From: Negativicutes bacterium
GTDB lineage: Bacteria > Bacillota > Negativicutes > JAGPMH01
NCBI GenBank assembly: GCA_018052945.1
Contig: JAGPMH010000016.1
Coordinates: 1 to 36,750, forward strand
DNA: 36,750 nucleotides
Reading direction: 5' to 3'
In this document: positions 33,616-36,750 of the stretch, piece by piece
How positions within the stretch are numbered: the first letter of the stretch is position 1
Layout of the letters: each line of letters starts with the position of its first letter
Program-made: the position numbers and the translations under genes
Notes under the pieces: model-generated
The model's database searches: none
What the model saw: the letters and a program-made list of their open reading frames with translations, nothing else
What the model was told of the DNA's origin: nothing

Positions 33616-33661
33616 AACCACCCATAAGTCAAAAACAGTTTTGAGATTCTTGGTTAAAACA

Positions 33662-33804
33662 TTTTTAACACAAAGCTCTCGAAGGTTACACAAAGAACAC
33701 TAAGGGACATTCGGTCTTAGCGACCTTGATGCCAATGTCCTCTAGGGACTTTTCATAAAACCCTTTGTGAACTTCGTGACTTCTTTGTGTTCTTCGTGTT
33801 TAAA
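33662..33804. repeat. Large imperfect inverted-repeat element in the secA-hpf gap
   Basis: The two ends (about 33664-33704 and 33760-33804) are imperfect complements of about 40 nt with ends TTTTAACAC and GTGTTTAAAA. Each arm is built of tandem units like CAC(A/G)AAG at 9-11 nt intervals. The interior has a further GGACATT/AATGTCC stem (33705-33711 with 33734-33740). It codes for nothing. It looks like a MITE- or REP-like intergenic repeat, or a long structured RNA; copy number is unknown. Confidence 0.55.
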
Positions 33805-33830
33805 ATCTTTTCCTCTCACAACCTATCCCA

Positions 33831-33890
33831 CCATCGTTCAGCAATCGTTTAACCATAGTTACCCTATCGTTTTCAACTATTGTTCAAAAA
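33831..33890. repeat. Array of degenerate 11-nt repeats (five units)
   Basis: On the plus strand the units CCATCGTTCAG, CAATCGTTTAA, CCATAGTTACC, then two of 13-14 nt beginning CTATCGTT and CTATTGTT, follow one another directly. The same motif, in the opposite orientation, recurs at 36664-36717. Apart from this array, the inverted-repeat element beside it, the secA promoter and the hpf terminator, I see nothing in the gap 33545-33940. Confidence 0.55.
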
Positions 33891-35131: not shown

Positions 35132-35851
35132 TTATAACACCTTTGATAAAAATAATTTTGTTCGCTCTTCTTGAGCATTACTGAAAATCTCTGTCGGAGT
35201 TCCAACTTCCACAATTTTACCTTCATCCATAAAAATAACTCTATCGCCAACTTCTCTGGCAAAGCCCATCTCGTGAGTTACTACTACCATAGTCATGCCC
35301 TCTTTAGCCAAGGCATTCATTACTTCCAATACTTCATTAACCATTTCCGGATCAAGCGCAGAAGTAGGTTCATCAAACAACATCAATTTAGGTTTCATTG
35401 CCAAAGCTCGAGCAATCGCTACCCGTTGCTGTTGACCACCTGATAATTGTGCTGGATAAGCTTCTGCTTTATCAGCCAATCCAACTTTTTCTAATAACTT
35501 CAACGCTTCTTGCTTTGCTTGTTCCTTAGTTTCTTTACGAACCTTCATCGGTGCCAACATAATGTTTTCTAATACAGACATATGCCCAAATAAATTAAAG
35601 CGTTGAAACACCATCCCAACTTCTTCACGAACTTTATTAATGTTGGCATCACTATTCAGTGGAATATTATCAACAACCACTTCACCATCAGTTGGTTTTT
35701 CTAAGTAATTAATGCAGCGTAACAATGTACTTTTACCAGAGCCACTTGGCCCAATAATAACAACAACTTCTTTTTCCGCTACGGTTAAATCAATACCCTT
35801 TAGTACTGCTAATTTTCCAAAGTTTTTATGTAAATTATTAATTTTTATCAT
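35132..35851 (-). CDS. glnQ: Polar amino-acid (glutamine-type) ABC transporter ATP-binding protein
   Basis: ATPase of the GlnQ/HisP family, 239 residues, energising amino-acid import. It has Walker [30 protein letters not shown] after the Q-loop, signature [17 protein letters not shown], Walker [15 protein letters not shown] and an H-loop in VVTHEMGFA. These match the polar-amino-acid subclass; the exact substrate is not determined. It overlaps the permease gene by 14 bp. No clear terminator is seen in the roughly 110 bp before the cspA promoter. Confidence 0.93.
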
Positions 35852-36503
35852 CTATTTTATACCTCCGCTCCAAATACGCTACAAAGCGGGAAATAACAAA
35901 GGTCATCGCTAAATAAATAACCGCTACACTCAGCCATATTTCCAAAGAACCATATGTTCTAGCAATAATCAATTGTCCTCGTCTGGTTAATTCCTCAAAG
36001 CCAATTACGGAAACCAATGAAGAATCTTTTAGCATCGCAATAAATTCATTACCCAACGGTGGTATTACTCTTTTAAAAGCTTGCGGGACTATAATATAAT
36101 ACATTGTTTGTCCCCATGTCATTCCCAAAGAACGTCCGGCTTCCATTTGCCCTTTATCAATCGACTCAATACCGGCCCGAAAAATCTCCGCAACATAAGC
36201 ACCGCTATTAATACTACAAGCCGTAATAGCAGCAACCAACGGATCAACTCTAACTCCCGTTATCATTGGCAATGCAAAATAAATTATGAAAATCTGCACC
36301 AACAAAGGAGTTCCTCTAATAAAGTCAACATATAACGAAGCCAACATTTTAACTAGCCATAACTTACTCATTCTCGCAATGCTAGCTACTAACCCAATCA
36401 GTAAACCAAAGCCCACACTTAAAGCTGTGATTTTAATTGTAACTAAAGCGCCCTCTAATAATAGCGGAAAAGAATTTACCACTAAGGCAAAATTAAAATC
36501 CAT
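35838..36503 (-). CDS. glnP: Polar amino-acid (glutamine-type) ABC transporter permease
   Basis: Inner-membrane permease of the HisM/GlnP family, 221 residues, with about five membrane segments and the EAA loop around [34 protein letters not shown] that docks on the ATPase. The N-terminal part ([26 protein letters not shown]) is typical. The ATG start has AGGGTGAG five bases upstream. It heads the operon: a promoter lies about 130 bp upstream and no periplasmic binding-protein gene is found between it and the window edge. That partner must be encoded elsewhere or beyond the edge. Confidence 0.93.
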
Positions 36504-36641: not shown

Positions 36642-36670
36642 ATTATAACACAAGAGAATATTAGGAACAA
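36642..36670 (-). promoter_or_regulatory. Promoter of the glnPQ operon
   Basis: In the minus-strand sense TTGTTC (36670-36665) and TATAAT (36647-36642) are separated by 17 bp. The -35 box overlaps the first unit of the 11-nt repeat array. The leader of about 130 nt holds no supported gene. Confidence 0.65.
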
Positions 36671-36717
36671 TAGTGAACCGGTTGTTAAACACTTGTGAAA
36701 CAATAGCGAAACAGTGG
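36664..36717. repeat. Array of degenerate 11-nt repeats (five units) upstream of glnP
   Basis: On the plus strand the units GGAACAATAG, TGAACCGGTTG, TTAAACACTTG, TGAAACAATAG and CGAAACAGTGG lie head to tail, four of them exactly 11 nt. They belong to the same motif family as the array at 33831-33890, read on the other strand. The array starts at the -35 of the glnP promoter and extends upstream. It may continue past the window edge. Confidence 0.55.
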
Positions 36718-36750
36718 AAATAACATTATTTCGTAATAATAATTTTGTTG

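Follow-up and report, generated by a model that had tools for sequence, protein, structure and literature searches.

Introduction

The closest known kinds of repeat to the one described here are two families of 7-nt units. TAACTGA repeats are direct, intergenic repeats of marine Beggiatoaceae, cyanobacteria and Bacteroidetes, located mostly just before start codons (PMC4679880). The GGGNATC repeats of Xanthomonas and Nostoc consist of a G-rich 7-mer forming G-quadruplexes and often lie less than 50 bp from stop codons, on the coding strand (PMC4692102).

We analysed a stretch of 36,750 bases (the window), which is the entire contig C16 of a 1.64 Mb genome assembled in 87 contigs. Two arrays of an 11-nt unit with the consensus GTTRAACRATR were found in it (Table 1). 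Like the TAACTGA repeats, they are short, direct and intergenic, belong to a family with many loci per genome, have neighbours whose functions show no pattern, and are patchily distributed in distant lineages (PMC4679880). They differ from them by a unit of 11 nt with a symmetric core and variable spacers and by their location between co-directional genes, often at stop codons. With the GGGNATC repeats they share a variable position in the repeat, a varying number of units and a location mainly between aligned ORFs, whereas GTTRAACRATR is devoid of G-tracts (PMC4692102). As in both published families, tandem units occur at many intergenic loci above control and are present patchily in distant lineages, and the unit itself differs from either published unit. 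The 11-nt family is hence new, of the TAACTGA/GGGNATC kind and distinct from both. Literature searches covering titles and abstract openings brought up no report of an 11-nt GTTRAACRATR repeat.

Two arrays of the 11-nt unit in the window

The array of five units that the preliminary description had reported in front of glnP was confirmed by two approaches. Over the five units, a weight matrix whose training set consisted of arrays on the remaining contigs of the same genome gave 48.8 bits, compared with a best value of -15.1 in 3 Mb of simulated sequence. The matrix input included the own-genome stretches L163 and L165-L168, five stretches that are absent from our array catalogue. Tandem Repeats Finder delimited the array to 36666-36713 with a period of 11, 4.4 copies, 67% matches and a score of 40. 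Of the originally proposed span, 36664-36717, the end was correct, while the true start lies one base earlier. The ten highest matrix scores in the window fall at two places only, array 2 and array 1, the latter reaching 42.4 bits over four units (best of 3 Mb simulated, -6.0). Array 1, 2.8 kb away, belongs to the same family and has the opposite purine polarity. Since GTTNAAC and NATN are each self-reverse-complementary, opposite orientation of the arrays amounts to opposite purine polarity of the spacers within the same motif.

Array 2 matches the core GTTNAACNATN at 29 of 40 positions (hand count). It falls below the threshold of the strict catalogue detector, by which array 1 was detected, and is therefore a worn copy of the family. 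It ends 33 nt short of the assembly break at 36750. The units abut directly, without the unique spacers of a CRISPR array, and curated Rfam families gave no match in the window at gathering scores.

Table 1. Positions of the repeat arrays and neighbouring features in the window
Feature	Position	Strand	Remarks
Second degenerate repeat family, CACAAAG/CACGAAG type, inverted halves	33655..33810	.	adjoins array 1; by eye
Array 1, four to five units of the 11-nt family	about 33825..33888	- (R polarity)	between hpf and secA
glnQ-like ATP-binding protein	35132..35851	-	best NCBIfam match GlnQ, under cut-off
glnP-like amino-acid ABC transporter permease	35838..36503	-	best NCBIfam match GlnP, under model cut-off
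Candidate glnP promoter TTGTTC-17-TATAAT	-35 36670-36665, -10 36647-36642	-	sequence match only
Array 2, five degenerate 11-nt units	36663..36717	+	R (purine-type) spacers on + strand
Array 2 unit 1, AGGAACAATAG	starts 36663	+	
Array 2 unit 2, TGAACCGGTTG	starts 36674	+	
Array 2 unit 3, TTAAACACTTG	starts 36685	+	
Array 2 unit 4, TGAAACAATAG	starts 36696	+	
Array 2 unit 5, CGAAACAGTGG	36707-36717	+	

The hpf-secA junction holds arrays both here and, as judged by eye, in G472, a genome of another family (L212:2891-4154). A stretch related to the CACAAAG/CACGAAG repeat next to array 1 flanks an array on contig C67. The flanks of the own-genome arrays had nothing in common across contigs except one stretch of the CACGAAG type.

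The repeat is dispersed in its own genome

A two-unit pattern with at most two mismatches matched the genome 42 + 43 times, compared with 3 + 5 matches of the reversed-pattern control, and another pattern gave 39 + 35 matches (control 8 + 7). A looser pattern allowing three mismatches separated poorly from its control (119 + 140 against 60 + 92) and was dropped. With matches far above the reversed control, at many loci and in several families, the dispersed repeat family that had been offered as an alternative to an operator is borne out.

Fifteen array regions of this genome were listed by hand, isolated single matches being excluded. In eight of them the distance to a contig end is at most 250 nt, although such sequence makes up 2.7% (P 1.3e-9). 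This concentration suggests that the arrays break the assembly and that the number found here is a lower bound. The 12 array neighbours that could be identified are CTP synthase, LeuA, phosphomannomutase, phosphoglucose isomerase, DAHP synthase, a GATase_5 protein, GDPD, DUF386, Fe-ADH, SecA, HPF and GlnP, and their functions are mixed.

Array 2 and the regulation of glnP

The preliminary description placed array 2 on the -35 box of glnP, with a position and phasing that would suit an operator bound by a regulator of the nitrogen or amino-acid type. TTGTTC-17-TATAAT is indeed present and its candidate -35 overlaps unit 1; a standard promoter scan, however, omitted this promoter, and TTGTTC equals TTGACA at three of six positions.

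We compared 110 glnP loci, our own and 109 others, drawn from 30 of one match list and, for the rest, from 80 of 520 relatives; a number of genomes contribute two loci, and the genomes searched include no same-family relative. Among those listed, the named relatives belong for the most part to Sporomusaceae and other families of Negativicutes, a smaller share being Proteobacteria, and our genome is accordingly assigned to the Negativicutes. None of the 109 orthologous upstream regions carries the array, the best score among these regions being -3.6 compared with 41.2 here. Moreover, the 247 nt that precede glnP contained no TnrA/GlnR-like or CodY-like site. Because of these two results and the functionally mixed neighbours of the other arrays, the operator reading is unsupported. 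The DAHP synthase gene also has an array at its 3' end, another array separates hpf from secA, and in phylum relatives arrays occur beside uvrA, mazG and kdpF (genes named by eye), all of which likewise speaks against an operator. In its favour, array 2 abuts a promoter that looks plausible by its sequence, and among the 12 neighbours that were identified, five have a connection to glutamine or amino acids (CTP synthase, LeuA, DAHP synthase, the GATase_5 protein and GlnP), which leaves room for some regulatory link of the arrays. Taken together, we consider it highly improbable that array 2 serves as the operator of a nitrogen or amino-acid regulator for glnP; it is probably not a glnP switch. 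Of the two observations that had been named beforehand as speaking against an operator, orthologous promoters do lack the array, whereas the repeats lie mainly between co-directional and not between convergent genes (see below).

The reading that we prefer, and consider likely, takes array 2 to be a partly decayed member of an 11-bp tandem repeat family dispersed through intergenic regions rather than a nitrogen operator specific to glnP. The operator was a false lead, and a repeat family takes its place. An ORF upstream of glnP is co-stranded in 72 of the 78 loci having one, and in 16 of 25 inspected glnP loci it resembles, by eye, the substrate-binding protein GlnH. In our assembly glnP and glnQ are present, while a protein search with the GlnH-like protein of a relative found no glnH orthologue, the best matches being paralogues of 30-34% identity. 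The gene is missing from the assembly or lost, and we infer that it lies in the gap beyond the contig end. Array 2 would then most likely be situated between glnH and glnP, where it may incidentally supply a weak -35.

Patchy distribution in the class and phylum

A symmetric 29-nt pattern was used to scan 380 genomes of the class, 234 of which have a completeness of 90% or more and no more than 5% contamination. Our own genome alone matched; the other 379 gave none. An earlier pattern, TTKAACRRTDG twice with one mismatch, had one match each in six other genomes and was replaced by the symmetric pattern because it excluded A at unit position 3.

In the phylum, 12 of 398 genomes matched, spanning eight families. 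Forward matches numbered 268 in G532, 82 in G472, 59 in G394, 38 in G421, 19 in our own genome and 14 in G511; lower values were obtained for G457 and G739 (6 each), G434 (4), G658 and G722 (2 each) and G573 (1). These matches overlap, each being a three-unit window and not an array. None of the 12 bearers had a match to the reversed control, and three other genomes showed control matches only. A few genomes from eight families share the same constrained 11-mer, whereas the same pattern found it in no other genome among the 379 sampled from the class; its origin, travel and conservation are directly testable.

In G472, 65 of the 82 forward matches lie within 98 kb of the 2.83 Mb chromosome (L208-L213, G472:C1:455001-575000; by eye). 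The clustered arrays of this genome sit inside larger duplicated intergenic repeats. In two other loci from two families, L171 and L178, homologous regions upstream of kdpF (by eye) share 79.6% identity over 658 bp, and the homology ends inside the array.

A constrained core and variable spacers

The consensus GTTRAACRATR contains a two-fold symmetric core, GTTNAACNATN. Units from other contigs gave the consensus TTRAACRATDG, which corresponds to GTTNAACNATN in a shifted frame. Within each unit, eight core positions are held and three spacer positions are variable. Adjacent units differed at 15-26% in the core and at 46-51% in the spacer when 78 arrays delimited by Tandem Repeats Finder were used, and at 10-27% and 44-48%, respectively, in 303 position-blind units outside the search seed. 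The contrast was determined in these two ways against search bias, the loci themselves still being chosen by pattern. As simple slippage plus neutral mutation would not separate core from spacer, the core appears constrained, either because it is recognised or because of the way in which it is copied. In G472, some arrays duplicate others, so that not all units are independent.

REP/BIME elements form hairpins of 20-40 nt and are associated with a transposase. The 11-nt repeats resemble them in being intergenic, palindromic and multicopy, and we considered whether the arrays form an RNA or DNA hairpin, REP/BIME-like or an attenuator, that works by folding. The core is self-complementary, and the array on contig C45 (L158:30-119) reached -34.4 kcal/mol with a z of -8.56. 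Array 1 folded more stably than most of its shuffled versions, 6 of 200 doing equally well (z -2.02), and the real unit order was slightly better than shuffled orders (mean z -0.46, s.e. 0.14, n 77). Furthermore, in a set of 77 arrays with five or more units, the bipartite ones ran from R to Y 18 times and from Y to R three times (P 0.0015 assuming independence, which may not hold for the five from G472). In contrast to REP/BIME elements, however, the spacer letters do not pair: compared with spacer shuffles the arrays gave a z of +0.21 (s.e. 0.18, n 77), and complementary spacer pairs within units were rarer than expected (66 versus 151, of 578). The 21 bipartite arrays showed no exact pairing (z -0.08, s.e. 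0.24), array 2 did not fold more stably than its shuffled versions (z 0.11 and -1.00), and substitutions in the core were compensated in only three of 63 cases. Thus, neither the spacer pairing nor the core compensation test revealed a stem kept by matching changes, and a function by folding is very unlikely. Since pairing is not compensated, recognition of the duplex fits the data better.

The arrays might accordingly be platforms for a putative sequence-specific DNA-binding protein that reads the GTTNAAC core once per helical turn, with a role in chromosome organisation, in transcription generally or in the spread of the repeat itself. A core that is kept while spacers vary and that is common to eight families would agree with this, as would the 98-kb cluster in G472, although the clustering is partly due to the larger duplicated repeats. 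We regard such platforms as a possibility of rather low probability, and one compatible with the dispersed repeat preferred above. More tentative still, and in our view doubtful, is the idea that the arrays represent a horizontally scattered, undescribed duplex-recognition system of Bacillota, in which putative 11-bp sites about one helical turn apart, their symmetric core kept by a dedicated binder or copying enzyme, would be set at gene ends chromosome-wide.

Location of the arrays relative to genes

Merging gave 83 array regions, of which 53 are flanked by tandem, eight by divergent and three by convergent genes; 12 are at a sequence edge and seven far from any ORF. Adjacent ORF pairs at the same loci are mostly co-directional anyway (254, compared with 28 divergent and 23 convergent pairs), so that the co-directional placement of arrays is little above background. 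ORFs were called mechanically at a minimum of 90 aa, which makes the distances to stop and start codons approximate. In 20 of the 53 tandem cases the array starts no more than 15 nt from the stop codon of the upstream gene, in 12 its end comes equally close to the next start, and in 29 it is nearer to the stop than to the start. An association of arrays with stop codons is suggestive only. The unit itself contains TAA or TGA within GTTRAAC, and arrays can consequently end reading frames. Agreement between array polarity and the strand of the upstream gene is weak (35 agree, 18 disagree, one tie, n=54; 8 to 11 in G532 alone).

Integron attC sites have the core GTTRRRY, with which GTTRAAC is compatible. 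This likeness, the 20 arrays that begin at stop codons and the order array, gene, array, gene, array in L220 of G421 might be taken to mean that the arrays are boundaries of mobile cassettes, by analogy with attC sites. However, the period-11 arrays do not have the attC layout, two orthologous arrays keep their place in sister species, and proximity to the stop is accompanied by the proximity to the next start given above. A cassette boundary is therefore barely conceivable. The L220 region (G421:C10, 2736-4574) comprises, with genes assigned by eye, an array, a RhuM-like gene, an array, a four-helix-bundle-like gene, an array and an aminotransferase-like gene.

Array lengths differ by whole units in two orthologous pairs

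G472 and G434, two species of the same genus, provided two orthologous pairs of arrays. In the first, a 2.8-kb region is 95% identical and the arrays differ by one 11-nt unit. In the second, the flank is about 82% identical and the arrays differ by 44 nt, corresponding to four units. Whole-unit differences at orthologous loci, as known from minisatellites (VNTRs), were therefore found in both pairs, which come from sister species of another family than the window genome. In a second genus (G394 and G511) no orthologous array pair was present among the fetched loci. Exact unit-step length differences are common to minisatellites and the 11-nt arrays, whereas the 11-nt units keep one constrained consensus across distant genomes.

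For the dispersed repeat that we favour, these data suggest the following course. Arrays would gain and lose whole units, as seen at the two G472/G434 loci, possibly by slippage or unequal recombination, and they may reach new intergenic sites. That eight of eleven positions are held could mean that the duplex sequence is recognised by something or is needed for copying.

Other repeats and related sequences

Several short-repeat families coexist in the array-bearing loci: counting the rows of three copies or more given by Tandem Repeats Finder, which may overlap, 56, 55 and 46 had periods of 7, 8 and 9, respectively. A real G394 array had no match when compared with phages and plasmids, a kind of query that a low-complexity filter may hide. 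Exact matches occurred in five viral contigs, four of which lie in DNA of 51-64% GC. A plasmid search with array-like sequence retrieved 60 gammaproteobacterial plasmid records, the best 20 of the 60 at 77.4%. One of them, a Pasteurella plasmid typed as IncQ1, contains imperfect 10-11-nt repeats near GGTTTAANGTTG (L252:600-680).
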